DNA from: Bacteroides sp. GM023
GTDB lineage: Bacteria; Bacteroidota; Bacteroidia; Bacteroidales; Bacteroidaceae
DNA: 64,000 bases
Direction of reading: 5' to 3'
NCBI RefSeq assembly: GCF_014750685.1
Contig: NZ_JAAXGE010000002.1
Location: 744,001 to 808,000 of the forward strand
The translations under genes and the position numbers were made by a program. Shown here piece after piece: positions 9,985 to 63,497 of the stretch. The notes under the pieces were generated by a model. That model was not told the DNA's origin and made no database searches. It was given only the letters and a program-made list of their open reading frames with translations. Position 1 is the first letter of the stretch, and every line of letters begins with the position of its first letter.

Positions 9985-11703
9985 ATGATTATGAAGAAGA
10001 TATTGACATATATATTCATTTGGACAACCATGGTGGGGGTGTCCGGTTGTCTTGATGATGACAACAACTATAATTATAGTGAGGTGAACAAACTGGAGAA
10101 AGTGGGTATTGGAGGAATGCGAGATGAATACTTTCTTGTATATCAACAAGAACTGACTATAACTCCGACCTTTGAGTTTACTATTGATAAGGAAAATCCG
10201 GACGTCTCTTATGAATGGCGTGTGGATGGTGTATTACTGCCGGATGAGACAAATCCTTCCTGTACATTCAGCTTTGAAAAAGGTGGCGTGTATGAAGTTA
10301 CTTATACGGTGATAGACAATAAGACCGGTGTGAAGTTTTCTAAAAGTAGCACGTTGAAGGTGCGTTCTCCGTTTGCCCGTGGTTGGTTAGTATTGACAGA
10401 AGATGGGCAGCAATCTAAGCTTTCTTTTATTGGTGCCAATTCCATCACTTATAGATTGGCGGTGACTGATGGCACTACGACAGCAGAGATCGACCGTGAC
10501 TCACTTGTATATAGTTACGTAATGGAGGACGTTACGCCTGGGTTAGGTTCTAATCCGAAGGGATTATTTCTGAATGCCGGTTATGTGGATAGCTATGGTG
10601 AAACGTTTGAAGTACCGGATGAAGTTATAGTAATGCAGGATCGTTGGGCTGAGTTGAATGGTGTTACCTTAGAACGTGAGGTTTATACGGAGGATGAGTT
10701 TAGGGGTGACTTGCCAAAAGCCGGTTTTAATCCGGTAATGGCTGCTATGACTTTTTCAGGCAAGGCTATATTAAATTCCGATAAGCACATTTATTGGGCA
10801 GATATGTCTATTCCTACCGATTTTCATTCTTGTGGTTATACTTCTTTCCCGGTGGGTAAGGACAAAAAAATCAAGGGTATTTATCCAAGCTATAAGATGA
10901 CTGAATATCATATCGTTATGCCTGTTATTACAGAGGATAATGAACTTGCGGGGCTTTTTGATGATGCAGGTCCTGTTTATAAAGATCCTACTTCAATGAA
11001 ACATTCTAATAATAGCGGGCAAATATTCAGCGTACAGGAAAATGATAATCTCAATAGTCCTGTAGATGAACAGTATAAATTACCGAAGAGTTGGGAAGTA
11101 CTAACTATGATGCCGGCAACCTCAGAAGATGACGGAATCCAGAATGCCTATCCAAGTTGGGTAGCAATTATAAAGGACGGCTCTGAGTATAAGTTGTTGT
11201 ATTTTCAATGGATGACGGGGACATATTCTTACTATAGTAAGATTGGCAATGGATTTTTTAAAGTATATGATCTTGACGGTTTGACAGGATTCACAGACTT
11301 GGCGGTGTTTAATAATAAAAAGTATGCGATAATTGCTGACGGAAGTAAATTGTGGTATTTCCAATATGGGGTAGGAGACAAAGCGACATTGAAAGAAATC
11401 AATAGTTCTTTTGCTTCTTCTGTGAAGGCATTGGATTCCAATGATATTTATGCACGTGGTAGTACCGATGCTGAAAAATGGCAACCGGAGCATAACGGAC
11501 AGCTTGGAGTGGCTTTGGAAGATAATACTTTTAGTATTTATGAAGTTTGGGAGACGGAAAATAGTGAGGGAGTCGCTACGGATGTGAAGATTAACCAACT
11601 GTTCCCTGATCCGAAAAAACCTGTAAATAATAAGTTTGGTAAGGTTGTAGATGTTCTCTATAAGTATGGCTCTATAAGAGAATTTCTTGAATTTGCATAC
11701 TAG
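9985..11703 (+). CDS. PKD-like family surface lipoprotein
   Basis: A 572-residue lipoprotein (signal peptide with Gly-Val-Ser-Gly-Cys, then Leu-Asp-Asp-Asp-Asn-Asn, an acidic stretch like the Bacteroides surface-export signal). Residues about 45-130 resemble a PKD/Ig-like domain: Tyr-Glu-Trp-Arg-Val-Asp-Gly, then Gly-Gly-Val-Tyr-Glu-Val-Thr-Tyr-Thr-Val. The remainder is strand-rich and could be a beta-propeller. This class regularly follows DUF4843 in SusCD loci and is assumed to help capture ligand at the cell surface. An alternative ATG lies at 9991. It is the last binding protein before the peptidase genes. Confidence 0.8.
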   Translation: MIMKKILTYIFIWTTMVGVSGCLDDDNNYNYSEVNKLEKVGIGGMRDEYFLVYQQELTITPTFEFTIDKENPDVSYEWRVDGVLLPDETNPSCTFSFEKGGVYEVTYTVIDNKTGVKFSKSSTLKVRSPFARGWLVLTEDGQQSKLSFIGANSITYRLAVTDGTTTAEIDRDSLVYSYVMEDVTPGLGSNPKGLFLNAGYVDSYGETFEVPDEVIVMQDRWAELNGVTLEREVYTEDEFRGDLPKAGFNPVMAAMTFSGKAILNSDKHIYWADMSIPTDFHSCGYTSFPVGKDKKIKGIYPSYKMTEYHIVMPVITEDNELAGLFDDAGPVYKDPTSMKHSNNSGQIFSVQENDNLNSPVDEQYKLPKSWEVLTMMPATSEDDGIQNAYPSWVAIIKDGSEYKLLYFQWMTGTYSYYSKIGNGFFKVYDLDGLTGFTDLAVFNNKKYAIIADGSKLWYFQYGVGDKATLKEINSSFASSVKALDSNDIYARGSTDAEKWQPEHNGQLGVALEDNTFSIYEVWETENSEGVATDVKINQLFPDPKKPVNNKFGKVVDVLYKYGSIREFLEFAY

Positions 11704-50139: not shown

Positions 50140-50227
50140 TTGTCACTCTATAAAGTGCCATTTGTCACGGTATAAGATGCTATTTGTCTTTCTATAAAGT
50201 GATATTTGTCACCCTATAAGGTGATGA
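50140..50227. repeat. Array C: four 22-bp units, TTGTCAC...TATAAAGTG
   Basis: Units begin at 50140, 50162, 50184 and 50206, exactly 22 bp apart. Each starts with TTGTC and has a TATAA near position 11. CAC and GTG frame the centre as a dyad, clearest in the last unit (CACC-CTATAA-GGTG). The array is about 90-180 bp upstream of the HU-like gene. With arrays A, B and D it makes four separate repeat families with the same period. Confidence 0.7.
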
Positions 50228-50258
50228 CTTCCCGATCGCATAAACTCGCACTATTTTG

Positions 50259-50302
50259 TGCACTGAAAATCCTTATTCTCTGCACTGAAAAGTCTTAATT
50301 AT
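50259..50302. repeat. Array D: two 22-bp units, TGCACTGAAAA
   Basis: TGCACTGAAAA occurs at 50259 and 50281, 22 bp apart, and the rest of each unit is also similar. A weaker unit may precede them at 50237. The phase differs from array C. The last unit ends 15 bp before the HU-like start codon, so it covers the region where that gene's promoter or leader must lie. Confidence 0.55.
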
Positions 50303-50317: not shown

Positions 50318-50938
50318 ATGGCTTATTACAATTTAAAGAAGAAACCGCCGTTGACCATCAAAGAGGGTGAAACGGAAACAATGTATGCCGACATTGTTTA
50401 TAACGGAACGATTACGGCAAAGCGTCTCATTCAGGCAGTTGCCAAAAGAACCGGATTCAAGGAAGGAGTGATAGAAGGAATCCTTTCCGAGTTGCGCAAC
50501 GAAACGTTGCAATATCTGGGTGAAGGCTATCGGGTGGAACTGGCAGAGTTTGGGTTCTTCTCCGCCAAAGTGAAGGCGCGACTGGTGGAAAAGACGGATG
50601 ACCTTCGTTCCAGTTCCGTTTCCTTCAATGGAGTAAACTTCCGCGCATCCAAGGAATTCCGTACAGGTATCCGGGGAGACTTGGAACGTAGGAAGTGTGT
50701 ACGCTTCTACACCTCAAGAGAGTGGGACACAGAGAAACTGAAAAATGTTGTCCTGCAACATATCCGCCAACATGGATTTATCACAAGGACAACTTATACG
50801 GAACTGACGGGACGGCTCAAGAACATGGCACTGACCGACCTTAAATCTTTTGCGAATGAAGGCATTATCAAAAGGGTAGGGCACGGCAATCAGATGCATT
50901 TTATTATACCGCCGGCAGCTACTGAAGTTCAGCCATGA
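50318..50938 (+). CDS. HU-family DNA-binding protein with C-terminal winged-helix-like part
   Basis: A 206-residue protein. Residues about 1-125 match the HU-like domain common in Bacteroides (Met-Tyr-Ala-Asp-Ile-Val, then Val-Glu-Leu-Ala-Glu-Phe-Gly-Phe-Phe-Ser at about 84-93). Residues about 135-200 look like a winged helix (Gly-Phe-Ile-Thr-Arg-Thr-Thr-Tyr-Thr-Glu-Leu-Thr-Gly). The family binds or bends DNA; a specific role is not known. The last residues differ from the second copy's ending (58192-58371): this gene reads into a decayed gene on the other strand, so its C-terminus was probably reshaped by the rearrangement. Arrays C and D fill its upstream region. Confidence 0.85.
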   Translation: MAYYNLKKKPPLTIKEGETETMYADIVYNGTITAKRLIQAVAKRTGFKEGVIEGILSELRNETLQYLGEGYRVELAEFGFFSAKVKARLVEKTDDLRSSSVSFNGVNFRASKEFRTGIRGDLERRKCVRFYTSREWDTEKLKNVVLQHIRQHGFITRTTYTELTGRLKNMALTDLKSFANEGIIKRVGHGNQMHFIIPPAATEVQP

Positions 50939-51180
50939 TATCTTCGTAACTGATGGCCGGTTTCTCGTTCAATAAGCGTGTATGCTCTGCGACGAAGTTA
51001 TCATAGCATCTTTTGGAAGCTCCCTTTTGTCCCGTCTTGAATAATATCCGGCACTTGATACGCATCGCTTCTTAATCGAGCGTGTCATTCACCAACAAGA
51101 CATCTGCTATTTACAATGTCAGTTTATTATTCCCTTTGACATCGGGAGTTTCCAGCATTTTGAAGTAAGGGTGAAAGGTT
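50919..51180 (-). pseudogene. Decayed C-terminal fragment, BTAD/TPR-regulator-like
   Basis: Read on the - strand, one frame gives about 85 codons of protein-like sequence interrupted by TAA at 51111-51113 and 51072-51074. The end reads Glu-Ala-Met-Arg-Ile-Lys-Cys-Arg-Ile-Leu-Phe-Lys-Thr-Gly-Gln-Lys-Gly-Ala-Ser-Lys, later Ala-Ile-Ser-Tyr-Glu-Asp-Ile, and stops at 50919-50921. This resembles the tail of bacterial transcriptional activator (BTAD-like, TPR) domains in large Bacteroides regulators, an identification from memory. It overlaps the end of the HU-like gene by 20 bp in the opposite direction. No start is visible before the next gene. Confidence 0.55.
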
Positions 51181-51195
51181 ATTATTGTTTGCCTT

Positions 51196-52761
51196 TTAAT
51201 TGATATCTGTAAGTTTTAGTGAGCTTTTGATTTCTCCTCTCATACGTAATGTTTTAGTATTCATTACCTTAACTTTTATATGTAGTGCTTCAAAAGCAGC
51301 TTTTTTCATTTGAATAGTATCTTTTCTGTCACGATACAAGCAAAATAACTTGTATTTAGGTTGTATGCGATTCGGTACCATTTCACTGGCTAGGGTATAA
51401 CATACAACAGCTTCGTCCATCTGGTTAAGTTTCTTATAAGAATCTCCCAAATGACAATACAATTCAGAACTTGGAATAATAGATGTAGCTTGCTTTAAGA
51501 CAGAAAGGCTGACGGAGGGCGGAAAGTTCTGATAATAATATTGGGCATACACATCTAATAAACGTGGTGTCGACTGTAATTCCGTTCGAGACTTTTCTAG
51601 ATATATTTTTGCTTTTTTGCTTTCTTGTGGTGATAATGAATATAGTTTCTTTACGTTATTCTTTAGTTCATAATAACGATAACTTCCCCAAAAGAATTGT
51701 GTCAGGAAACATATATAAACAAACCATTCCACTAGTTGGAATTTATAACTTGTTGATATACTTCTGCTTTTTTTGCATTGTATGCCTCCTAGTAGTAGAG
51801 GAACCAATAACCATAGCAATACTACATTGGATGGATAAGAGAATAAAGAGAAAATGAGCAATGTAATGAAGCTACTTGGATAAATTTTATGATAGTTTTG
51901 ATAAGATGCGTATTTTAATGCAGATACTATAATGCAGAGAATAAAAATGAGTCCTACCATTCCTTGCTCTACTCCTATAAGCAAAAACTCGTTGTATGGA
52001 TAAGTTGTGTTATCTGCTAACGTTGCATATGAAGAATGTGGATGTGATTTGAAATATCGAGCCTGATAATGCATATATTCTTTTTTGAAATTACCTATAC
52101 CTTTTCCCATTAAAGGGGCATCAGCCAGCATTTCAGAAGATACACGCCATATTAGTAAGCGACCGTTTGCTGAATTTTTTTTGTAGTAATAAGCGAAAGC
52201 TGAAAATAATAATACAAATATAATTATCCCTACTTTTGAGATGTTGCTTAGTGAATTTCCATGTTCCTTTTTCTTGAGGAAGATAAGATAGCCTGTACCG
52301 AAAAGTGCTGCCAACCAACTAGCGCGTGAATCAGTAAGTATAATTATGGCTAATAATAAAACAATAATAAAGAGTAGAAGAAGTTTTGTCCATGAATGTT
52401 CTTGATATTCTAGGTAAAATCCGAAAATTATAGTCATTGCAATGGCTAGAAAACCACCTAATGGTCCTGGATTGGTAAAGGTCCCTGTCATATTAAACGT
52501 AGAATGGAAACTATCTATCCAATGTGCTTTTTGGCAAATTGCGATAGTTGCTTCAATAATTCCTAACAGAACAATTCCCCATAAGCACCATTGTTTCTGC
52601 GATATTTTTCTTGCTATACAATAGCATAGAAAAAATGCACTCCATTGAGTAATCTCAAAAAAGTTAAATTCATTTTTTGATGTCAAACAGAAATAGAATC
52701 CTGTTATTGCTGTATAACTCAATAACAGGATATCTATTATGTTAAGTTGATTTCTTAGCAT
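51196..52761 (-). CDS. O-antigen ligase-like (Wzy_C) membrane protein with C-terminal TPRs
   Basis: A 521-residue protein with about 10-12 membrane helices (residues 8-375) and a soluble helical tail (about 380-500) of TPR type (Tyr-Cys-His-Leu-Gly-Asp-Ser-Tyr-Lys-Lys-Leu-Asn-Gln-Met-Asp-Glu-Ala). The Wzy_C signature is present: Arg-Leu-Leu-Ile-Trp-Arg-Val-Ser and Gly-Lys-Gly-Ile-Gly-Asn-Phe, then His-Pro-His-Ser-Ser-Tyr and Tyr-Asn-Glu-Phe-Leu. Such proteins transfer or polymerise lipid-linked glycans, including onto proteins. There is no O-antigen cluster nearby, so protein or lipoprotein glycosylation within this island is a reasonable hypothesis. AT-rich like its neighbours. Confidence 0.83.
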   Translation of the reverse strand: MLRNQLNIIDILLLSYTAITGFYFCLTSKNEFNFFEITQWSAFFLCYCIARKISQKQWCLWGIVLLGIIEATIAICQKAHWIDSFHSTFNMTGTFTNPGPLGGFLAIAMTIIFGFYLEYQEHSWTKLLLLFIIVLLLAIIILTDSRASWLAALFGTGYLIFLKKKEHGNSLSNISKVGIIIFVLLFSAFAYYYKKNSANGRLLIWRVSSEMLADAPLMGKGIGNFKKEYMHYQARYFKSHPHSSYATLADNTTYPYNEFLLIGVEQGMVGLIFILCIIVSALKYASYQNYHKIYPSSFITLLIFSLFSYPSNVVLLWLLVPLLLGGIQCKKSRSISTSYKFQLVEWFVYICFLTQFFWGSYRYYELKNNVKKLYSLSPQESKKAKIYLEKSRTELQSTPRLLDVYAQYYYQNFPPSVSLSVLKQATSIIPSSELYCHLGDSYKKLNQMDEAVVCYTLASEMVPNRIQPKYKLFCLYRDRKDTIQMKKAAFEALHIKVKVMNTKTLRMRGEIKSSLKLTDIN

Positions 52762-52787
52762 AGAGTAATCACAATCACGTTATGTTT

Positions 52788-53246
52788 TTATGGTTTTGTA
52801 ATATATAACAATGGACCATTACCAACATAAATAGCTGTATCAGGATAAATTGTTTTTATAATTAACGTATCACAATTTAACTTTACTATTTCTATAACAC
52901 TTCCATTTTCATTTATGATATAATTTCCATACTCTTTTTTCCCTATCCTGTCAAGTTTAAAAGTTCTTTCTATTGAGTCTGACAAATAATACATGACTGA
53001 ACCAGTAAGTTTGGTTTCTGCATGAGGATACTTTTGGGGATTAGTATTTTTAAACCAAAGAAGTGTTTTCGTACTTTGTTTATTGAATACTACTTTATTT
53101 ATAATATTGGGTGATGTTCCTTTTGTTAAATACCAACTTTTTCGAGTCAGTAAATCCATAGTCGATAACTTATCCTTTTTTAAATAACAAGGACATGAAC
53201 AAGCAAAAATGCACGACAGCATTAAAATTAATAATATTCCTTTCAT
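52788..53246 (-). CDS. Small lipocalin-like lipoprotein
   Basis: A 152-residue protein with a lipoprotein signal (Cys-Ile-Phe-Ala-Cys-Ser-Cys; the exact lipid-bearing Cys is ambiguous). Leu-Leu-Thr-Arg-Lys-Ser-Trp-Tyr-Leu at about 32-40 followed by alternating strands suggests a small lipocalin-type barrel. I do not recognise a specific family. It sits 26 bp from the Wzy_C gene and 7 bp after the papain-like gene, so it is part of the five-gene island operon. Confidence 0.65.
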   Translation of the reverse strand: MKGILLILMLSCIFACSCPCYLKKDKLSTMDLLTRKSWYLTKGTSPNIINKVVFNKQSTKTLLWFKNTNPQKYPHAETKLTGSVMYYLSDSIERTFKLDRIGKKEYGNYIINENGSVIEIVKLNCDTLIIKTIYPDTAIYVGNGPLLYITKP

Positions 53247-53253
53247 ATTTATA

Positions 53254-54714
53254 CTATTTTACTCCTGATATAACGTATGCATATAATCCCAATGCTGAAA
53301 CAGGGGCTTCCCTCCAGCACCCATATTCTGGATCCATGTATATAAGGTTACCATTAGTGTGATATCCTATTACAGCAATATTATGTGCACTTTGCTCCAT
53401 CTCTGATTTTATAGTTGTCATTATAATATACCCATTGTTAATAGCTTCTACAAATGTTATATTATCGGCGGGCACAGTAGTGAAGAATTTATCTACAAAT
53501 CCTGCGATTTTCTCTATGTGCATTCCATTTCCTATTATATCCATTAATATGGCTCCTGTTGATAAATTGGGATTCAACCCTATTTGATAATTTATATATT
53601 CTTGGAGTATAGTCCCGTGATCTACTTTTAAAACTCCATTACTATCATAAGTCGCTGTTCCACCTAATGTTAATTTTATGTATGAAATTATGGAAGTGAC
53701 ACATGTGTATCCTATTTGCTTTTCCATTCTATCTGGTAATTTGGCTATGACAAATTTGTCATCTTTTGCCGCAATAAAATCTTGGCTTTGGATAGGCTTT
53801 TGTTCTGTATCGTTATTAGAATTATCTTGGGATTCGTCATCTGGGGTAGCGGGATTTTCCGGCTCTGGCTCTGGGTCTATTGGGCTAGTATCAGGTCTTG
53901 AGGAGTTTATCCAGTCTTCCATTTCGTTTTCTCCCCACTCACTGTAATCTGGTGGAGTAACGATAACATCGTCTAACCAACCACCATCATAAGTAAAATC
54001 ATAATCATCTTCTCCACGTGTCAACACTACATTTTTTCTTTGTACGGTAATAGCGGATACTAGCATGCGAGCTTGTTCATATTTACTGATAAAATCAGTT
54101 TTTGATGTGGTACTCAATAAGAATACACCATCAGTTTTTATTCCATTTTTGTATTGGCTCACTCGGGCGGTTAAATTAGAATACACGCACGAGTAAATAG
54201 CGATCCCTGTAAACTCTCCCTTGTCTGCACAATTTATGAATTTGTTGCAAATGTCATGAGAGTATTTGTTATCGTAAGTTTTTGAAGGTATCAATGTAAG
54301 AATATATTGCCCCATTCTTTTACTGTTGAGATCTTTTATAATTATTAATTTCTGATATATATTAACTTTCCCTGCAGAGGGAAAGCCATTCTTTTCATCC
54401 ACATGAATTGCTTTGTATTGATAGGTAGGGGTAATGGGAATATCGTAACATGCAATTCCATTCTTAGATGAGCCTATAGCAACTTCCCATTTGGGGATAA
54501 AATCACCGGGAGTTATTGATTTATTGTTTAGCGAACGGCTCGTTATCAAGCTTACTTCTGATTGTTTTTCAAAAAAAGTTTTAGCTTCTTGCAAGCTAAA
54601 GTCTTTCATTTCTATCTGCGTATCTAGCTTTATTGAGTCTTCATCTGTACAATTTACAATACAGAACATTATTATCATTATAGATGCTAGTGTGTAAATA
54701 TAGGATATTTTCAT
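53254..54714 (-). CDS. Papain/C39-like cysteine peptidase-fold lipoprotein
   Basis: A 486-residue lipoprotein (Cys-Ile-Val-Asn-Cys-Thr-Asp-Glu-Asp; acidic run as in surface lipoproteins). Residues about 35-225 are a strand-rich domain I know only as a recurring N-terminal part of Bacteroidetes secreted proteins. Leu-Asp-Asp-Val-Ile-Val-Thr-Pro-Pro at about 247-255 is the linker motif often seen before effector-like domains. A Pro/Glu/Asp-rich linker spans about 270-305. The C-terminal domain (about 325-486) has a possible papain-like pair: Cys in Gly-Tyr-Thr-Cys-Val-Thr-Ser and His in Ser-Ala-His-Asn-Ile-Ala-Val-Ile-Gly-Tyr, then Asp in Met-Asp-Pro-Glu. This suggests a peptidase, amidase or transpeptidase; activity is unproven. 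Confidence 0.72.
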   Translation of the reverse strand: MKISYIYTLASIMIIMFCIVNCTDEDSIKLDTQIEMKDFSLQEAKTFFEKQSEVSLITSRSLNNKSITPGDFIPKWEVAIGSSKNGIACYDIPITPTYQYKAIHVDEKNGFPSAGKVNIYQKLIIIKDLNSKRMGQYILTLIPSKTYDNKYSHDICNKFINCADKGEFTGIAIYSCVYSNLTARVSQYKNGIKTDGVFLLSTTSKTDFISKYEQARMLVSAITVQRKNVVLTRGEDDYDFTYDGGWLDDVIVTPPDYSEWGENEMEDWINSSRPDTSPIDPEPEPENPATPDDESQDNSNNDTEQKPIQSQDFIAAKDDKFVIAKLPDRMEKQIGYTCVTSIISYIKLTLGGTATYDSNGVLKVDHGTILQEYINYQIGLNPNLSTGAILMDIIGNGMHIEKIAGFVDKFFTTVPADNITFVEAINNGYIIMTTIKSEMEQSAHNIAVIGYHTNGNLIYMDPEYGCWREAPVSALGLYAYVISGVK

Positions 54715-54720
54715 AATATA

Positions 54721-55770
54721 TTATCTTTTATATTCTTTTTTTTTATTCAAATCATACATTCGTTTTCCTCTCCATTTTTTATATGAGCTATTGCTGAATA
54801 GCGGACGAACGCTCTGTAAGAACGTTTCGTTTGCAACTTTTAATTTTTCTGCTTTATCGGCTGTAGAAAGTTTCTTTTGCTCATTTATTATCTTATATTC
54901 TTCAATAGCATATATGTTATATGCATTTTTAAATTGATTGATCTGTACCTTATTTAATCCATATCGTTTGGCGAGCACATAATCTAGTTGTGAATTGTTA
55001 ATTGCTATCCACTTCTTTGCAACCTGTGGGGGAACTGCTTTTTTTATAGCACTTAATTTATAATTTTCAATCTCTTGCAATTTTTCATTCCTGTTTTTGG
55101 GACGCTCTTCCCATATTTTTGCACGTTGTGTTGAGCAGTTAACTTCTATTTGAGATATTTGCCAGCTTTCGTTGTAAGTCGCTCCATATTTATCCATATT
55201 CTCAAGTGTCCTGAAAGTCATATCTTTGTAATTGATATACCAGTTTCCTATTTCTGTTCCTATGATTTGACGGATTTGACTATTTAATGTTGTGAGTATG
55301 TTTTGTGTTTTTTCGATTTTAATATATTCTTCATCGTTTCCCTCCAATATATGATCGCGTTTTTTTTTCCACTCACTTTCTGTTTTGTACAATGTATTTA
55401 TTTTCTCACGTGGAATGAACTTCGTTTCACTTAAAATGTGGTATCGTTCTAAACCCTGTGTACAGGAACTCCAACTCTTGTACCGTCCTTTACTGAACAC
55501 TTGACTGATCATTATACCATACTTATTGTAAAGCTTCTTTTGTTCCTCTTTAAATTTGACAGAACTAATTCTTTGGTTTTTCAACTGTTCATTTTCATTT
55601 TCCAGAGATGGAAGTAATAGTTGGAGATACTTATCGGCTTTTGGCTGATTAATTTTGTACGTTTTCATCAGGTATTCCTTATGTTTTTTGATATCTACGT
55701 TAGAGATACTCTGTGAATAACTGGTACTTCCTGATAGAAGTAAGACTAGAAAAAAAGTAATTTTCTTCAT
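54721..55770 (-). CDS. Secreted helical protein with internal duplication, function unknown
   Basis: A 349-residue protein with a signal peptide (to about Thr-Ser-Tyr-Ser-Gln) and no recognised family. It is almost wholly helical and charged. Two units resemble each other: about 30-105 and about 262-340. Each runs from Leu-x-Lys-x-Tyr-x-Ile/Leu-Asn, through a charged helix with Lys-Leu, to a final Phe-Ser-x-x-x-Tyr-Lys-x-Trp. Heptad-like charge and the Tyr-Lys-x-Trp end recall periplasmic CpxP/Spy-type helical hairpins, but the match is weak. The middle holds Cys pairs that could form a disulfide. A chaperone-like or scaffold role is only a guess. Confidence 0.6.
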   Translation of the reverse strand: MKKITFFLVLLLSGSTSYSQSISNVDIKKHKEYLMKTYKINQPKADKYLQLLLPSLENENEQLKNQRISSVKFKEEQKKLYNKYGIMISQVFSKGRYKSWSSCTQGLERYHILSETKFIPREKINTLYKTESEWKKKRDHILEGNDEEYIKIEKTQNILTTLNSQIRQIIGTEIGNWYINYKDMTFRTLENMDKYGATYNESWQISQIEVNCSTQRAKIWEERPKNRNEKLQEIENYKLSAIKKAVPPQVAKKWIAINNSQLDYVLAKRYGLNKVQINQFKNAYNIYAIEEYKIINEQKKLSTADKAEKLKVANETFLQSVRPLFSNSSYKKWRGKRMYDLNKKKEYKR

Positions 55771-55810
55771 AAAATTATTATTATTTATGTGTTAGAATAA
55801 AGTGTGCTTA

Positions 55811-57616
55811 TTACCACCATATTTGCTGCCCGTTTTCGTAGGTAAATGGACGTTCTTCTTTACCTTTTGTTAAATCTCGAAGCCATAATAATGCGTTTTT
55901 GGGTACGTTGTTATAAGTAATATGGTCTTCTGTCGTGGATTTCTCACCTAAACTATTCCAACCTTTATTCCAATAAAGTAGTTCATAGGTATCCGTTGGT
56001 ACAACAGAATTGTCATCATTGCGTGGAGCGAAACTTATTGCTCCGATAGAAGTCGCTTGAGGCAATGCCATCCCTATCCATAAGTCTATGCCTCTATCTA
56101 CTTGGTAATATGTTAAGGGATTATTGTCGAAAATAGCCATCATTGTGCTATCTTTTTGGATAGCTTCGCAGGCTATTGGATAGGAAGAAATAAGTGTTCC
56201 GTTTTGTTGGTGTAAAGAAAATTCGGCTATGCTGAATATACCTTTCGGCTTTCGATATCGTATGTATTTGTATTTTGTATTACATGTAATATTTATTTTT
56301 TGTGTTCGACTTTCCGGGGTACTAGTGATTTTGTACAGTTCTTCTGCATCGGAAAAGTCTATTCGGTTGGCACCTTCAAAAATACCTCCTATCATCGTTT
56401 GGGCAAATCTCACTATTCTTTTATTTAACGGATATTTGCGGGTTAGTGTAATAGTCTCTTCCTGCATGATATTGGGTTGTATTTCTCGAATACTATCATT
56501 AGATACAATAATAGGTGGGGATAGAGGGGCTATTTCTGCGTTTGTGAAGATAGAAGGTAGATATAAAATACCATTGCCTAAATTTAAGGCTTCCTCTGAT
56601 TCTTCTCCTATTTTGGTGCCTGTACCTATATTGGAAAATTTGCCATTTGTTGAGACCGCAATTGGGATCCACCCATTAGGGGAGAATACCGATAAATAAG
56701 ATATATTATTTTTATTGTAATTAAGTGCCATAGTCTTAGAACCTATCAAATACATTCCTGTAACATCTCGAATATCACAATCTTTAAACAGTTGCGGAAA
56801 ATCAAATACCATAGTATCATGCAATTGATTAGAAACTATTGTGTAACTTTTCCGATAAATTTTTGGAACTTTTCGAATAGGTAAATCATTTATATCATTA
56901 TTGTTCTCGTTTTGGAAAGATATGGTTTTTTCATTTGGAAGTATTGCTGCTGCAAAAGAGTGCCCGTTGTTGCTACTTCCCCAATATGGAACTAGCTCGA
57001 ATGCGGCGGGAATACCTGCTGAGCGTAAAGCCATAACAACTAATGTGCTTCTGTCGTCGCATTTGCCATACTTTGTTTGTATAAGAGATGTATATGATTG
57101 TAGGGAATCTTTGTAAAACTCTGGTGCTAATTTGAGTTTGATTTGTGCATTAATATTTTGTGCTGCTTCTGCCATATCATTACTGTTCCCATTGCTGAAG
57201 TGCTTTACACAATCCCACTTCCAGTAATATTGTAAAGGCTCGTTGGCTACTCGATAAGGGAGGATGTATTCACAAAATTGTTCAAATGTGTAGTTTTGTA
57301 AATAAGGGCACTTTGTTTTTAAACAAAAGGAGTATTCCAACGATTCTATAAGAGAGTCAGCTTTTACTATATCTATATCATATATCCGCTTTTTCTCTCT
57401 TCCGCTTAAAGAATATTTGTTGGGTATGTTTGATATTAAAAAACAAGCAGCTTTATATTTTTCTTTATCGCCTTTTACCTTATAGTAGTCGAGAAATTTA
57501 ACAAGTTCTTTACGGTTTGTATTAGATCGTTTGGCTATTTTCCATGCATTATTTTCATCGGTAGAAGTACATCCGAATAAAAAGATGAATAAAATAAATG
57601 ATAGAATTGTTCTCAT
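55811..57616 (-). CDS. Transglutaminase-like lipoprotein with C-terminal discoidin-like region
   Basis: A 601-residue lipoprotein (Leu-Phe-Gly-Cys-Thr-Ser). Residues about 170-230 hold a transglutaminase/papain-fold core: Cys in Tyr-Gly-Lys-Cys-Asp-Asp-Arg-Ser, followed by Leu-Arg-Ser-Ala-Gly-Ile-Pro-Ala and His in Gly-His-Ser-Phe-Ala. The third residue is not clear. A strand-rich middle (about 280-430) and a C-terminal discoidin-like region (about 440-580, Phe-Asp-Asn-Asn-Pro-Leu-Thr-Tyr-Tyr-Gln) follow, suggesting glycan binding. Similar architectures occur in Bacteroides as transglutaminase-domain proteins of unknown substrate. It is the first gene of the island operon. Confidence 0.75.
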   Translation of the reverse strand: MRTILSFILFIFLFGCTSTDENNAWKIAKRSNTNRKELVKFLDYYKVKGDKEKYKAACFLISNIPNKYSLSGREKKRIYDIDIVKADSLIESLEYSFCLKTKCPYLQNYTFEQFCEYILPYRVANEPLQYYWKWDCVKHFSNGNSNDMAEAAQNINAQIKLKLAPEFYKDSLQSYTSLIQTKYGKCDDRSTLVVMALRSAGIPAAFELVPYWGSSNNGHSFAAAILPNEKTISFQNENNNDINDLPIRKVPKIYRKSYTIVSNQLHDTMVFDFPQLFKDCDIRDVTGMYLIGSKTMALNYNKNNISYLSVFSPNGWIPIAVSTNGKFSNIGTGTKIGEESEEALNLGNGILYLPSIFTNAEIAPLSPPIIVSNDSIREIQPNIMQEETITLTRKYPLNKRIVRFAQTMIGGIFEGANRIDFSDAEELYKITSTPESRTQKINITCNTKYKYIRYRKPKGIFSIAEFSLHQQNGTLISSYPIACEAIQKDSTMMAIFDNNPLTYYQVDRGIDLWIGMALPQATSIGAISFAPRNDDNSVVPTDTYELLYWNKGWNSLGEKSTTEDHITYNNVPKNALLWLRDLTKGKEERPFTYENGQQIWW

Positions 57617-58191
57617 AGTATTTGAATATCAAGTGTTTTTTACGCCTGCAAAGGTCGCTACTAATATTGGGATAGATGTACGATAAAATACAATAATGTG
57701 ATAAAATTGTGCATAAGGCTCTTTTTAAAAATAATTTATCCTTGATTTGTGATTTTTTGTATTATGTGTTCTATTATGTATTTTGAAATAGAAATAACAC
57801 ATTGCAATTATGCTTCGGTAGATAGATTTCCTATTATGATATTGGTCGTTTTTTATTACATGGTTGAGATGTTCTTTACAGTCGATTCTTACCTCGTTTG
57901 ACTATAGTGACATACTATTTACTTTCTTCTCTTTAGTCTGTGAGTTATCTATAGTAAGATTACGAAAAAAATCTGCATATTTACTTAATCAATTTCTTGA
58001 ATCTTATACAGACTAAAGTCTGTCCGTCCGATAAAAAGGGACAGCCTATTATATCTTTTATTTTCTTGTTCTTCAATTTTTGCTGATGAGCGTTTGAATC
58101 CGCGCGAATGTACTTGATAAGATTATTGAGGAAGTCAATATTCGTGTGGAGATTAAAAACAGACTTTGTGAGCTAAAGAGAAAAGTCGGAA
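57617..58191. other. AT-rich non-coding stretch at the island's right end
   Basis: No coding region is supported. It contains the upstream region of the transglutaminase-like gene; a near -7 box reads GACCTTTG on the - strand, one base off consensus. ACAGACT and AGTCTGT (58008-58023) make a 7-bp hairpin that shares CTGT with a second possible hairpin, CTGTCC (58019-58025 region) with GGACAG (58039-58044 region), so only one can form at a time. A short protein-like reading frame at about 58095-58190 has no clear identity. Confidence 0.5.
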
Positions 58192-58371
58192 AAGATTGTC
58201 CTGCAACATATCCGGCAACATGGATTTATCACAAGGACAACGTATACGGAACTGACGGGACGGCTCAAGAACATGGCATTGGCAGACCTTAAATCATTTG
58301 CGGACGAAGGCATCATCAAAAGGGTAGGGCACGGCAATCAGATGCATTTTATTATACCGCCTGCTGATTAG
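58192..58371 (+). pseudogene. 3' fragment of the HU-like gene
   Basis: These 180 nt reproduce the C-terminal winged-helix-like part of the HU-like gene at 50318-50938: Val-Leu-Gln-His-Ile-Arg-Gln-His-Gly-Phe-Ile-Thr-Arg-Thr-Thr-Tyr and on to Phe-Ile-Ile-Pro-Pro, then Ala-Asp and TAG. By eye about nine bases differ over some 165. The HU-like N-terminal domain and start codon are missing, and a stop codon lies just upstream in this frame. The two copies run in the same direction and bracket the five-gene island. Confidence 0.85.
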
Positions 58372-58459
58372 GGGTATCCAATAAATATCCTGTCTTGATA
58401 TTCAATGAAGAGCAATTTTCCTCTTTTCAGATGGAATTTGCTCTTCATTTATCCTTAAA

Positions 58460-59938
58460 TTACTTCATACTAAATGTATTAAAAGAATGTCCCTGTAAAG
58501 TAACATCTAAATATTTATTTCTTATTTGTACAGTTAGCTGTCGTGGGGTATCATTAAAGTTTCCGGCTACTACCAAGAACTTATTGTCAGGAGTCAGAAA
58601 TACCATAACAGGTAGCTTATCTTCACCTTTCTCTTTATATTGCAAAATCTTCGTACCGGAAACAACCCGGTTGCTAAAATGCTTTACAGCATAATATTCC
58701 GGAGTATAAATAACGGAACTAGTATTCGAATCTACTCGAACTAATGCATTCTGTTTCCATCCCCAACCGCTGGTTCCTTCATCACACAAGATGGCATTCC
58801 AAAAAGTATATTCTTCACATCCACTACCCAAATAATGATTTATCAAGTTAAAAGTGTGTTCGGCTGCTTTCCAATCGAAAGTACCTGAACCACATTCACT
58901 TTCAGTCTGCATATATTTATAGTTTGGATATTTTTTGCGTATTTCCGGCAGGATCTGTCCTCCCCACCATTGGAAACCAATACCTTCCACCGCATCTTTC
59001 ATGCGGGGATCGGAGAGAATCTTGTCTACCAATTCGATGCGGTTTGTATTCAGTGTACCCAGATAAAGTTCTATTTCCGGCAGTTGTTTCTTCAAAGTAG
59101 GAGCTAAATATTCCACATTGAAGCGAATAATACCTTCAGGAGTCCATGCGCAAGCGGGGTAAATGGAATAAGCCCATGGTTCATTTTGAAACATCACCCG
59201 GTTCACTGGAATCTTTTCTTTCTGATAAGCTGATACAAATTTACAGAAATAGTCAGCATAAGATTGTAAGTAGCGTGGGTCTTGAATGAAATAGTCGTTC
59301 TCTGCCACCTGCTTTGGATAGAACTTCTTATCTACGTTTTCAATCCCTTCATAAAGAGCTATCTCTGCTTGAGCAGGTAATTGGTTTACCCCTGCTTTAC
59401 TTTTTACAGAATAATAATGATTCACTTTCATCCAAGAAGGAGGTGACCAGGGAGAAATCCAAAACGTCATATTAGGATTCACCTTTAGCGCCCGTTTCAC
59501 ATAAGGTATAAGGGTTTGTTTATCACGGTCGATATTAAAGTAATTCAGTTTAAAGTCACCCGGCACTTCATCGCAGCTATACCAGTTGCGTGCATAGTCG
59601 TTGGCATCCATCGGAATACGTCCCATAGAGAATTTTAGTTCGCCGTCAGGAGCAAAAATATTGTTTAGCACCACCTTCTGGTCATCTATTGATAGCATGT
59701 TTAGTGCGTCCCAACCTAATTCATTGAAACAGGTTCCCCATTTTTTGAAGGTTTGGATACTTTCATTGGTATCCGCTTTTAAAACAGGTGTTTGATTACT
59801 CTTTGTTTGAAGTTTCACTTCAGTTTCTTTCCAAACATTCCCTTCCGTACTGCTGATCCATGTAAAGGATTGGGCGTACATACCGGTCAGGCTTATTGTA
59901 AGCCCACTCAGTATTAATATTCTTTTTAGATTCATCAT
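58460..59938 (-). CDS. GH30 family glycoside hydrolase
   Basis: A 492-residue secreted hydrolase (signal peptide to about Met-Tyr-Ala-Gln). It fits GH30: a (beta/alpha)8 barrel with Ser-Pro-Trp-Ser-Pro-Pro-Ser-Trp-Met-Lys (about 162-171), acid/base Glu253 in Gln-Asn-Glu-Pro and nucleophile Glu346 in Gln-Thr-Glu-Ser-Glu-Cys-Gly, then a small beta-sandwich typical of the family. Characterised GH30 members cleave beta-1,6-glucan, beta-xylan or glucosylceramide-type bonds; subfamily cannot be fixed by eye. With the sulfatase and lyase genes upstream it forms the tail of a Sus-type locus. Confidence 0.9.
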   Translation of the reverse strand: MMNLKRILILSGLTISLTGMYAQSFTWISSTEGNVWKETEVKLQTKSNQTPVLKADTNESIQTFKKWGTCFNELGWDALNMLSIDDQKVVLNNIFAPDGELKFSMGRIPMDANDYARNWYSCDEVPGDFKLNYFNIDRDKQTLIPYVKRALKVNPNMTFWISPWSPPSWMKVNHYYSVKSKAGVNQLPAQAEIALYEGIENVDKKFYPKQVAENDYFIQDPRYLQSYADYFCKFVSAYQKEKIPVNRVMFQNEPWAYSIYPACAWTPEGIIRFNVEYLAPTLKKQLPEIELYLGTLNTNRIELVDKILSDPRMKDAVEGIGFQWWGGQILPEIRKKYPNYKYMQTESECGSGTFDWKAAEHTFNLINHYLGSGCEEYTFWNAILCDEGTSGWGWKQNALVRVDSNTSSVIYTPEYYAVKHFSNRVVSGTKILQYKEKGEDKLPVMVFLTPDNKFLVVAGNFNDTPRQLTVQIRNKYLDVTLQGHSFNTFSMK

Positions 59939-60031
59939 TGAAATAATTTAATTTACAATTGCACCGTTTCTTCTATTTTTCTTTTCAAGTTGTTCTATAC
60001 CGGTGAATGGAAGTTATCGTTGTTTTGACAG

Positions 60032-61582
60032 TTAGTACTGTATTCTTTCGGGGAACTTCCGTTCTTTCGCCCAACTGTCTTCCGACACTTTTAACCAATT
60101 ACCCAGTTCTTTTTTCAATAGCCTCATTTGTTTGGCTGGAGTCTCTTCCAACTTCAACGGATTCATTTGATAAGGGTCTTTTTGATTGTCGAACAACAGA
60201 TAGTTTCCTTCTTTCGTCACCAGATACGAATAACGCTCGGTACGTACTCCTTTTTCTTTCTGCATATAATAGAATGAAGAAATCGGCTTCTTTACTTTTT
60301 TGAATTTTCCGGTGATAATACCTTGCGAATAATCCTTTCCTTTCACGGTTTCAGGCAGCTTGTCGCCTAAGTTCATCATGCCTAACATTGTCGGCATGAT
60401 GTCCGTAGCCCCAAGCATTAGGTCGTTAACCTGCGGTTTCAGTTTGTTTGGGTAACGCACAAAAAATGGAATAGCAAAAGCCTCGTCGTAAATTACTCCT
60501 TTGGCCATGCGACCATGGCTGCCCATCATCTCTCCATGGTCGGCCGCGAACACCAGAACGGTATTGTCCGTCAGCCCTTCTTCATCCAGTGCCTTCAGTA
60601 CACGACCTATCTCATCGTCTACGCTTTTTATTAGGGAGAAATAGACTTTAGATTCCAAAATTAGTTTGTTCACGTTCTTGATTTGCGTGCCTTCTCCATA
60701 CTTCACGTTGGGACGGAGCAGCAAATCTTCTTTTTTCATGTCCTTATAATATTGGTTGAACACTTCCTCTTTACAGTCCTTAATGCTGGAATAGGGGGTG
60801 TGGGGAGGATTCAGACTCCAAAATAGGCTAAAAGGCTTGGACGCGTCACGTTGTCCTGATTTATTTTGCAGATATCCGATTACCACATCTGCTTCCACTG
60901 CCGAAGTAAATCGATATGGGCGGTAAGCTTCACCGTCTTTCTTTCCATTCACTAGTTCCGGACGATTGGAGTAGGCTGCGGCATTAAAATGATTGTCTTT
61001 TAGTTGCTGGAACCAGTATTTATTACTTTTGCGTCCTCTGCCTTCAGGGATATATGTATCGTATGGAAATATACAGTGCCCTCCCGGTTTTTCGGTGGTG
61101 CCTACATAATTCCCGTCCTTGTCGAATAATGCTTCTGTGCGATTCCAATGTGTTTTTCCCACATAAGCCGTTTCATAACCGGCTGAGGCCAGCACGTCAG
61201 TAAAACAGATTAGGTTTTCATGAATGCCCTCCGGCCTTCCATTGTAGCAATTGGTAGGTACTCCGTTTGTCTCAGGGAACATGCCGGTCATTAGCATAGC
61301 CCGGTGGGGGCTACTTAACGGGCAGGTACTGCAAGCCCGGTTAAATATGACACTCTGTTTGGCCAATCGGTCAAGGTTAGGTGTATGTACGGGATCGCCC
61401 ACTGTATTCAGTATATCCCGATATTCGGGATCACTCCACAGGCTCAGTGCGTTCAGTCGATATTGGTCGGGAAATATATAGACTAGATTCGGGCGTTGTT
61501 CCTGTCCGAAGACCTGTATGGATACTCCTGTTAAAAGTATGACAGGAACGTTCCACATTATTCTTTTTAAAGTTGTTTCCAT
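60032..61582 (-). CDS. Sulfatase, serine-type formylglycine precursor
   Basis: A 516-residue secreted arylsulfatase-family enzyme (signal peptide to about Gln-Val-Phe-Gly-Gln). The modification motif is Ser90-Ser-Pro-His-Arg94, so the formylglycine would derive from Ser and need an anaerobic maturase (anSME), as in B. thetaiotaomicron. A metal site is suggested by Tyr-Ile-Phe-Pro-Asp-Gln near 35-40 and Ala-Asp-His-Gly-Glu-Met-Met-Gly-Ser-His near 348-358. It would remove sulfate from a sugar before or after lyase action. It lies 10 bp after the lyase gene. Confidence 0.92.
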   Translation of the reverse strand: METTLKRIMWNVPVILLTGVSIQVFGQEQRPNLVYIFPDQYRLNALSLWSDPEYRDILNTVGDPVHTPNLDRLAKQSVIFNRACSTCPLSSPHRAMLMTGMFPETNGVPTNCYNGRPEGIHENLICFTDVLASAGYETAYVGKTHWNRTEALFDKDGNYVGTTEKPGGHCIFPYDTYIPEGRGRKSNKYWFQQLKDNHFNAAAYSNRPELVNGKKDGEAYRPYRFTSAVEADVVIGYLQNKSGQRDASKPFSLFWSLNPPHTPYSSIKDCKEEVFNQYYKDMKKEDLLLRPNVKYGEGTQIKNVNKLILESKVYFSLIKSVDDEIGRVLKALDEEGLTDNTVLVFAADHGEMMGSHGRMAKGVIYDEAFAIPFFVRYPNKLKPQVNDLMLGATDIMPTMLGMMNLGDKLPETVKGKDYSQGIITGKFKKVKKPISSFYYMQKEKGVRTERYSYLVTKEGNYLLFDNQKDPYQMNPLKLEETPAKQMRLLKKELGNWLKVSEDSWAKERKFPERIQY

Positions 61583-61592
61583 TTCTTGTATG

Positions 61593-63497
61593 CTATAGTT
61601 TTTTTACCACGAATGAATAGTTGCCTTTCTTGGCTTGAGTCTTTGCTTTGAACGATAAGCGATAGATTGTATTTCCCCACACCTTTACGAGTGGTGGGTC
61701 TTTCAAGGTTTTCGTCTCGACGTTTAGCTCAAATTCTTCTGCATTGTAACGTAATTCCGCTTTTATGTCTTTTACCCTAATATACACTTTTCCCTTTTCC
61801 TGATGGTCTATCTCTCCCCAAGTCATAAAGTTGATTACATTGGGAACTATAGCTTCTTCCAGTTCAAAGGAATCATTGATTTGTACCTGCCTATTGTTTA
61901 TTTTATAAGAGCGTGTCCACTTTTTCGCCTTTGCTTCTTTGGGATAAGCTGTCGCTATATTGGCAGAGAAGCCGTTTTTCCATGCTTTTACTTCGGTTGC
62001 CTTATATTTTCTGCCATATTTTTGGGATACTCCGTTTATCATGGGCAGATTGTGATAGTTACTTTGCATACTCCAGATGGTATAGCGCTCACTGCTGAAT
62101 GTCTTGCGTGTATAAGTTCCTACACCGGCATCAATCAGTATGGGGGTCTGATTGAACCAAACCGAGCAAGTGCCTGCATCATTGTGATTATGGCTTTCGT
62201 CATTATATCCACCTTTTGCTGCTAAGAATATTCCTTCTTTTGCAGAAAGATAGCAAAATTCAGTTTCAGGATACCAGGTGAAAGGGCGAATTTCATGCTC
62301 AGGCTCTATCTGCTGCAATTCTTTGTCAATAGCGATGGAAGCCAGGGTACGAAAGACATCCCGGCCATTCCAAGGTAAAGAAGGCGATTTGCGCATCAGG
62401 GCGGCAAATCCTTTTAACTCATCGCTACCTACAGCTTTGCCGAAACGGTAAATGAGATACGCATCGCCACCACCACGCGCTGATGCGTCAGCAAAGTTCA
62501 CGACCCAGCCGTTGCCTACATAAGAACGTGAAATATATTCTCCTATGTTTCTTATCATTGGTTCCTGAAAGATGCTAACCTTCCCACCGGTGATGTCCGA
62601 GAGAAGTTCCAGATAGTCAAGTGTTTTTCCGGCAGCGTGTCCCCAATAGGATGGGCCCTCTTCGCAAGCCCCGTTCGCTTTGATGTAGTTCAAAAACTTA
62701 TCTACCGATTCCATTGTCAGATGAACAGCTTTCGCCAGAGTGTCGCGGTCATTTTCAAGAAGCATAAAGCACATCAGTGCGTTGCTGTTACACCAAGGAT
62801 TCCAGTTATTGAGCATACGTCCGTTGTAATTGCGTCCCATCCACCAAAACGAGTCGTTATTCATATATGGATCAAGAATACGAACTTGCAATTCGTGACG
62901 CAACCGACGTGAGATTTCCGGGTCCACTTTGTTGAACGAATCGTGCATAAAATAGTAGGTCCATGCCAATAATCCGCCAAGATCACCGGAGGTAAGATCG
63001 ATGAGAGGATAATCGTACGTTGGTAAAGAACGGGAAGAAGGCTGCGTAATGAGGTGGGCGGAAAGAGCCCATGAAGTCATTTCACAGGTATGGAATACGC
63101 CATTTGCCAGTTGGTCGAGAAAGCGTCCTTTTCCTTCGGCGAGTTCCGCCATCAGCAAACCGATGATGGCATTATTATTTTCACCAAAAGGCTTTTCCAT
63201 CATCGAACGATTACCTGTACGCTCAAAAGCCAGATAATCGGTAGCTTTCACCACTTGCCACTGATAATCCAATAATTTTTCTCCACGCCGGATATATTCG
63301 TCTTTAAATGTTCCCAAGAATGTATCCCATCCGGCACGATCGGTATAATCGGGATAGGTGACCCATTGTTGGTTCAACACCAAAACATCCTTTAGGCTAT
63401 TCATATCTGCTTGTTTCTGTAATAGATTACGTTCCGTATAAGCAAATGTGACAGTTGCACACAAAAATGCAAGAAATAACAGCGCCAATCTTTTCAT
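61593..63497 (-). CDS. Heparinase II/III-like polysaccharide lyase
   Basis: A 634-residue secreted protein (signal peptide to about Val-Thr-Phe-Ala). The N-terminal half is an alpha/alpha toroid, with Tyr-Asn-Gly-Arg-Met-Leu-Asn-Asn-Trp-Asn-Pro-Trp (about 219-230). The C-terminal half is a beta-sandwich with the heparinase II/III hallmark Ser-His-Asn-His-Asn-Asp-Ala-Gly, then Ile-Leu-Ile-Asp-Ala-Gly-Val-Gly-Thr-Tyr. Family members cut uronic-acid glycans by beta-elimination. Together with a sulfatase this suggests a sulfated, uronate-containing glycan. Confidence 0.9.
   Translation of the reverse strand: MKRLALLFLAFLCATVTFAYTERNLLQKQADMNSLKDVLVLNQQWVTYPDYTDRAGWDTFLGTFKDEYIRRGEKLLDYQWQVVKATDYLAFERTGNRSMMEKPFGENNNAIIGLLMAELAEGKGRFLDQLANGVFHTCEMTSWALSAHLITQPSSRSLPTYDYPLIDLTSGDLGGLLAWTYYFMHDSFNKVDPEISRRLRHELQVRILDPYMNNDSFWWMGRNYNGRMLNNWNPWCNSNALMCFMLLENDRDTLAKAVHLTMESVDKFLNYIKANGACEEGPSYWGHAAGKTLDYLELLSDITGGKVSIFQEPMIRNIGEYISRSYVGNGWVVNFADASARGGGDAYLIYRFGKAVGSDELKGFAALMRKSPSLPWNGRDVFRTLASIAIDKELQQIEPEHEIRPFTWYPETEFCYLSAKEGIFLAAKGGYNDESHNHNDAGTCSVWFNQTPILIDAGVGTYTRKTFSSERYTIWSMQSNYHNLPMINGVSQKYGRKYKATEVKAWKNGFSANIATAYPKEAKAKKWTRSYKINNRQVQINDSFELEEAIVPNVINFMTWGEIDHQEKGKVYIRVKDIKAELRYNAEEFELNVETKTLKDPPLVKVWGNTIYRLSFKAKTQAKKGNYSFVVKKL

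Follow-up and report, generated by a model that had tools for sequence, protein, structure and literature searches.

A five-gene block at positions 51196-57616 in Bacteroides sp. GM023 is best explained as a polymorphic toxin-immunity cassette carried on a predicted surface lipoprotein. Judged from comparative sequence evidence, the probability of this reading is about 0.75. The block lies in a window of 64,000 nucleotides, the whole stretch of DNA analyzed (contig NZ_JAAXGE010000002.1, positions 744,001 to 808,000), from the 7.04 Mb genome of this gut-type Bacteroides, a member of the same genus as Bacteroides faecis. Three findings lead to the reading: a gene order that recurs, C-terminal domains that are swapped on one N-terminus, and a downstream gene whose family corresponds to the C-terminal class. 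The sequence evidence for a swapped toxin with matched immunity is strong. The cassette would likely be a weapon against neighboring bacteria, and its small lipoprotein is likely the immunity partner of the C39-like effector. Such toxin-immunity logic is already known; the carrier and core genes match none of the delivery systems compared.

Effector Relatives and Their C-Termini

The C39-type protein of the window has 132 relatives, 120 of them listed. They share an N-terminal stretch of about 255 residues together with a Pro/Asp-rich linker, and diverge beyond these. Clustering of the last 175 residues of the listed relatives and fetched effectors yielded 88 zincin I ends (81 with HExxH), 19 C39, 14 zincin II, 9 JAB, 5 EExxH, 3 hydrophobic, and 3 M23, plus three singletons; the duplicates L003, L004, and L005 are counted twice in these sizes. 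The same duplicates (of L060, L059, and L065, respectively) were counted once in the class models and in the pair test described below. Three C-termini that had chained into cluster 0 were excluded from the class models. The class names are our own. M23 alone scored above the Pfam cut-off, and the Pfam C39_2 and Prok-JAB matches were both below it. The C39 label was assigned from the relative P0112, which carries PF13529, and from the aligned residues C338, H444, and D461. Swapping is seen in P0029 (C39) and P0047 (zincin I), which are identical at 300 of 300 N-terminal residues and end in unrelated domains; the listing places each of them on a single 59,519-base contig.

By a simple pattern, the window effector and 91 of the 120 listed relatives contain a lipobox, and lipoprotein status is predicted. 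Two or three Asp/Glu residues fall within the five positions after the Cys in 90 of the 91 listed lipobox-bearing relatives and in 13 of 15 in the loci. The Bacteroides lipoprotein export signal is given as S(D/E)3 or CS(D/E)2 in the passages compared (PMC6222051). The effector relatives resemble this signal in having acidic residues beside the lipid-bearing Cys, but the effectors here mostly read C(K/T)DE.

In G133, found via the small gene, a C39 end sits on a carrier weakly matched by the N-terminal model, and the gene is broken. L076 (6062-7000) encodes a zincin I domain on a leader-like N-terminus within a GSCGSC-rich peptide cluster, the same likely toxin domain on a different carrier. 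L104 (7299-11305) encodes three short proteins that match the N-terminal carrier model and have no toxin domain; an F1 gene (a small-gene family treated next) lies between them.

Small Genes Downstream of the Effectors

The pair test covered 25 effectors with a recognized C-terminus and a same-strand neighbor within 300 bp. L066_14964 (an M23 match away from the cassette) and L076_6062 (the zincin I domain in the GSCGSC-peptide cluster) were dropped. The next gene belonged to family F0 after zincin II effectors (11/11 pairs), to F1 after C39 effectors (3/3 counted pairs), to F3 after EExxH (2/2), to F4 after JAB (2/2), and to F9 after the hydrophobic class (1/1). Zincin I effectors were followed by F2 in three of six pairs and by F6, F7, and F10 once each. 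Overall, 63 of 75 same-class pairs had a small-gene family in common, as did 0 of 225 different-class pairs. None of 100,000 shuffles, which ignore relatedness, reached 63 same-class matches, and the result was also 0/100,000 with one pair per locus (22 pairs). Of the four zincin I effectors in L134, three precede genes matched by the F2, F7, or F10 models.

F0 corresponds to DUF5043 and F4 to DUF6705. Small genes also form tandem arrays, with six F0 open reading frames (ORFs; one short) in L066 and three F1 genes in L103, and occur without their toxin, as F1 at the end of L057 and DUF5043 in L193 and L194. The toxin-free DUF5043 gene of L194 lies about 4 kb from another HU-type gene (5749-6288 and 10313-10945). 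Across ten small-gene families, a simple hydrophobicity rule found a signal-like N-terminus in 41 of 42 members, and the partner of the hydrophobic class has two predicted membrane spans. These features fit toxins acting in the periplasm or membrane.

The association was also recovered in reverse. DUF5043 is present in 42 of 157 genus genomes. Starting from DUF5043 alone, 30 loci were returned, one of them truncated by a contig end, and 23 of the 29 readable loci had a zincin II domain in the gene immediately upstream; L143, L145, and L151 repeat L074, L072, and L067, and without these the count is 20/26. For DUF6705, L192 (6609-10543) in G736, a more distantly related genome of the same taxonomic class, has a lipoprotein gene whose product ends in a JAB-like domain (E 1.2e-5), followed by four small DUF6705 lipoprotein genes.

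The Window Locus and Its Borders

Table 1. Features of the window at and around the cassette
Feature	Position	Strand	Evidence
Intact HU-type (HU-HIG) gene, left border	50318..50938	+	Pfam HU-HIG E 1.2e-29
Wzy_C/TPR membrane protein, core gene	51196..52761	-	Pfam Wzy_C E 5.4e-17, TPR; seven hydrophobic spans
Gene of a small, secreted, lipoprotein-like protein (F1), predicted immunity protein	52788..53246	-	F1 after C39-type effectors in 3/3 counted pairs, and in G182
Predicted lipoprotein toxin: N-terminal carrier (~1-255), disordered linker, C39-like C-terminus	53254..54714	-	C338, H444, D461
All-helical secreted protein, core gene	54721..55770	-	Model pLDDT (predicted local distance difference test) 89.7
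Transglutaminase-like lipoprotein (TG), core gene	55811..57616	-	Pfam Transglut_core E 1.1e-8; C186, H219 present
3' HU fragment, right border	58179..58372	+	Similarity to intact HU gene

A first-pass annotation of this DNA had described five AT-rich minus-strand genes bracketed by an intact and a partial HU-like gene, and coordinates and composition agree with it (Table 1). All five genes are on the minus strand with gaps of 6-40 nt. Their GC contents are 0.352 (TG), 0.320 (helical), 0.352 (C39-type), 0.277 (small lipoprotein), and 0.329 (Wzy/TPR), that is, 28-35% versus 0.46 in the left and 0.416 in the right flank. The bracket is real: Pfam recognizes the intact gene, and the partial copy matches 50731-50916 at 91% over 58179-58364. 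This copy (175 bp, 93%) is the only other genome match listed for the window HU gene. Pfam likewise recovered the transglutaminase-like and Wzy_C/TPR identities that had been proposed, but lent no support to a lipocalin-like label for the small lipoprotein. The C39-like label fell below the cut-off in the window protein and was kept through P0112 and the aligned residues. For the presumed duplicated helical protein, the all-helical model stands; the internal duplication is visible by eye and unscored.

The proposal of an island at the HU gene is also supported. The relative G085 has no island: one HU gene lies directly next to its counterparts of the window's GH30/sulfatase genes (58192-61605, 92.3%), so the window fragment occupies the position of that HU gene's 3' end. 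In the relative G090, an HU gene adjoins the same sigma/FecR/SusC genes as the left flank of the window. Placement of the genes here in all close relatives, which would have spoken against an island, was not seen in these two. From the two arrangements, the sequences on either side of the island appear to correspond to two distinct HU loci, joined where the island now sits. The island likely entered by recombination between HU genes, as suggested by one relative per side. The HU fragment is identical at 163 of 179 positions to the intact window copy vs 153 of 179 to the G085 HU gene, and it may derive from plain duplication; its last ~70 columns slightly favor G085 (58 vs 56 of 60, then 8 vs 5 of 9). 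Tandem 22-nt repeats lie just upstream of the HU gene (50140-50295), with similar stretches at several places in G090 and G085, and are possibly HU-related control sites.

The absence of a transposase had been noted before, and a transposon is not supported: none of the window genes scanned with Pfam had a transposase match, and no dedicated transposase search was made. Phage or plasmid cargo was considered and rejected, as the helical protein and the effector had no match in phage records, plasmids, or viral contigs. PADLOC gave no match for the six proteins scanned, and the only PHROG match among scanned proteins was the HU gene.

Recurrence of the Cassette and Its Core

Only 7 of 119 genus genomes, own genome included, carry TG relatives with at least 50% identity, at 8 places in all, which also supports an island. 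The order TG, helical protein, effector, and downstream small gene is found at all 8 places where the DNA continues, that is, the window and L056, L057, L058, L059, L060, L065, and L134. The genes keep together elsewhere rather than being scattered, with six of the seven other places ending in Wzy_C/TPR. Wzy_C/TPR is thus the last cassette gene at 7 of 8 places, window included; in L134, the exception, toxin-immunity pairs continue to the end of the stretch. The helical gene stands between TG and effector at 8/8 places (split in L056). The effector of L056 is interrupted by another gene, and an extra gene precedes the small gene in L059. The DNA of L061 and L012 ends within the cassette. B. 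faecis also carries a close cassette. A second layout lacks the helical gene and places TG and Wzy beside effectors and small genes (L069, L070, L072, L073, L074, L077, L103, and L136).

At the genus level, the effector profile matched 20 of 158 genomes, some through the C-terminus only; at the level of the order, it matched 6 of 393 sampled genomes, own genome included. G182, from another family of the order and found via the effector, has a C39 end followed by two F1 genes, and a third F1 gene after TG and Wzy. In three loci that are richer in GC, the GC content is 56-60% for TG, 36-48% for the first effector, and 30-35% for the first small gene matched; in L065, small genes further along reach 46%. 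The contrast between TG, effector, and small gene fits an old core with fresher cargo. TG is preceded in both L059 (181-3073) and L065 (3181-5474) by two possibly regulatory genes, one for a large lipoprotein-like protein of 574-594 residues and one for a secreted protein of 121 residues.

Judged by eye, 37 of 38 aligned relatives keep the Cys and His of TG. The helical protein has no clear match among solved structures. By Pfam, the Wzy_C/TPR protein belongs to the O-antigen ligase family. Of 20 distant TG loci (L105-L124), hand-picked from the TG list and not random, 16 have Wzy within 5 kb and 8 have NVEALA-type peptides near TG, so the core extends beyond the toxins. TG stands beside short NVEALA-type secreted peptides and large lipoproteins in L106, L108, L109, L112, L117, L120, L121, L123, and L062. 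There, TG is often accompanied by Wzy together with a gene resembling a signal peptidase; the core is the same and the cargo differs. A tentative extension, which we consider somewhat doubtful, is that TG, the helical protein, and Wzy_C/TPR together make up a surface-delivery machine of Bacteroidales, so far undescribed, that takes interchangeable cargo: envelope-acting toxins here and NVEALA-type peptides elsewhere.

Comparison with Known Systems

The cassette shares with polymorphic toxin systems, as presented in the passages compared of Zhang 2012 (PMC3482391), a conserved N-terminal carrier with an exchangeable C-terminus, a downstream immunity gene, and polyimmunity loci. Here, the carrier bears unrelated C-terminal domains, the downstream gene is specific to the C-terminal class (with zincin I partners loosely related), and both polyimmunity arrays and lone immunity genes occur. 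Toxin domains listed in the same passages include Tox-PL-C39, metallopeptidase, and JAB types, and Imm65 is given as a lipoprotein that confers immunity to Tox-JAB-1 in Bacteroidetes; the likeness of our C-terminal classes to these families is by name. In contrast, the carrier and the TG/helical/Wzy core match no trafficking mode in those passages.

By its features, SitBAI of myxobacteria works most alike. In Vassallo et al. 2017 (PMC5562445), SitBAI toxins are lipoproteins whose N-terminus is conserved and whose C-terminus varies, accompanied by an immunity gene downstream and by an accessory secreted protein; all these features are shared with the cassette, where the toxin is a lipoprotein by prediction. 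SitBAI nuclease C-termini act in the cytoplasm and are delivered by TraAB outer-membrane exchange, whereas the ends here are mostly peptidase-like and the partners secreted. The same bacteria also carry polymorphic toxins of the MuF/Bxa type, on Bacteroidaceae prophages and with immunity genes alongside (Alexei et al. 2024, PMC11699363, in the passages compared). They differ in their MuF N-terminus and prophage encoding, while the effector N-terminus here had no Pfam or PHROG match and no relative in phage records or viral contigs. No published description of the cassette was found in open-license PMC literature, and the same holds for "NVEALA". The earlier view that the block matches no known system therefore stands for carrier and core, and not for the toxin-immunity logic.

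Alternative Explanations

Several observations weigh against a toxin-immunity cassette. The window C39 domain scores 17.3 bits against a Pfam cut-off of 24, its predicted structure is weak, and the effector resembles the export signal only in part. Zincin I neighbors fall into four sequence families (F2, F6, F7, and F10), joined loosely by profile comparison (F2-F6 92.6%, F2-F7 59%, F2-F10 19%), and one of the four zincin I effectors in L134 precedes a gene matched by no model. At 6 of the 29 DUF5043 loci, the called upstream gene has no zincin II domain; the miss at L165 is uncertain, the call being a 55-residue ORF on the opposite strand. The TG/Wzy pair also occurs in loci without recognized toxins, which leaves the delivery part of TG/Wzy a guess.

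Staphopain and staphostatin illustrate how a protease can be paired with an inhibitor. A similar pair used for feeding or envelope upkeep, in which the lipoprotein would break down external proteins and the small one would guard its producer, would account for the peptidase-like majority of C-termini, each with its matched small secreted protein. Ends that are not peptidase-like (hydrophobic, and JAB of uncertain activity), swapping on identical N-termini, tandem arrays, and lone small genes suit conflict more than feeding. We consider this explanation unlikely. Processing of a secreted peptide by the C39-type peptidase, TG, and Wzy/TPR is suggested by the NVEALA-type peptides and Wzy at the distant TG loci, but the window cassette contains no NVEALA-type peptide and unrelated domains replace C39 within the same gene order, making such maturation very improbable. 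Equally remote is a host-directed effector, for which the small protein would be just a partner in secretion. Its carriers are gut bacteria, and peptidase-type domains are also found in host-directed effectors (Zhang 2012, PMC3482391, in part), but class-matched partners and tandem arrays point to self-targets.

The idea of two cysteine hydrolases cooperating with a glycan-transfer protein is not supported: the C39 end is one of many interchangeable C-termini, swapped for unrelated domains, and the small lipoprotein is probably an immunity partner. The first-pass interpretation is thus partly supported. Its island stands, and of its two guesses, an envelope-modifying or an inter-bacterial system, the latter is the better one; its cooperating hydrolases are not supported.

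Proposed Mechanism and Significance

In the proposed toxin-immunity cassette, the C39-like C-terminal domain would be the toxin, exchangeable on the conserved N-terminal carrier. The effector lipoprotein may be flipped to the cell surface, with the acidic residues after the lipid-bearing Cys as signal, and could get to neighboring Bacteroidales through contact or outer-membrane vesicles. There, the C39-like peptidase would cleave a target in the periplasm or envelope, and the secreted small protein would shield the producer and its kin in the same compartments. TG, the helical protein, and Wzy/TPR may mature, anchor, or load the toxin. The island itself would have been acquired via recombination at HU genes.

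If this reading is true, abundant gut bacteria would possess a lipoprotein-borne, rapidly exchanging toxin arsenal. DUF5043 and DUF6705, Pfam families of unknown function, would gain predicted functions, and the widespread Bacteroides TG-Wzy_C/TPR gene pair would have its first use. If the surface-delivery machine is also real, it would constitute a new delivery class for such toxins, and DUF5043, DUF6705, and F1 would be new immunity families.

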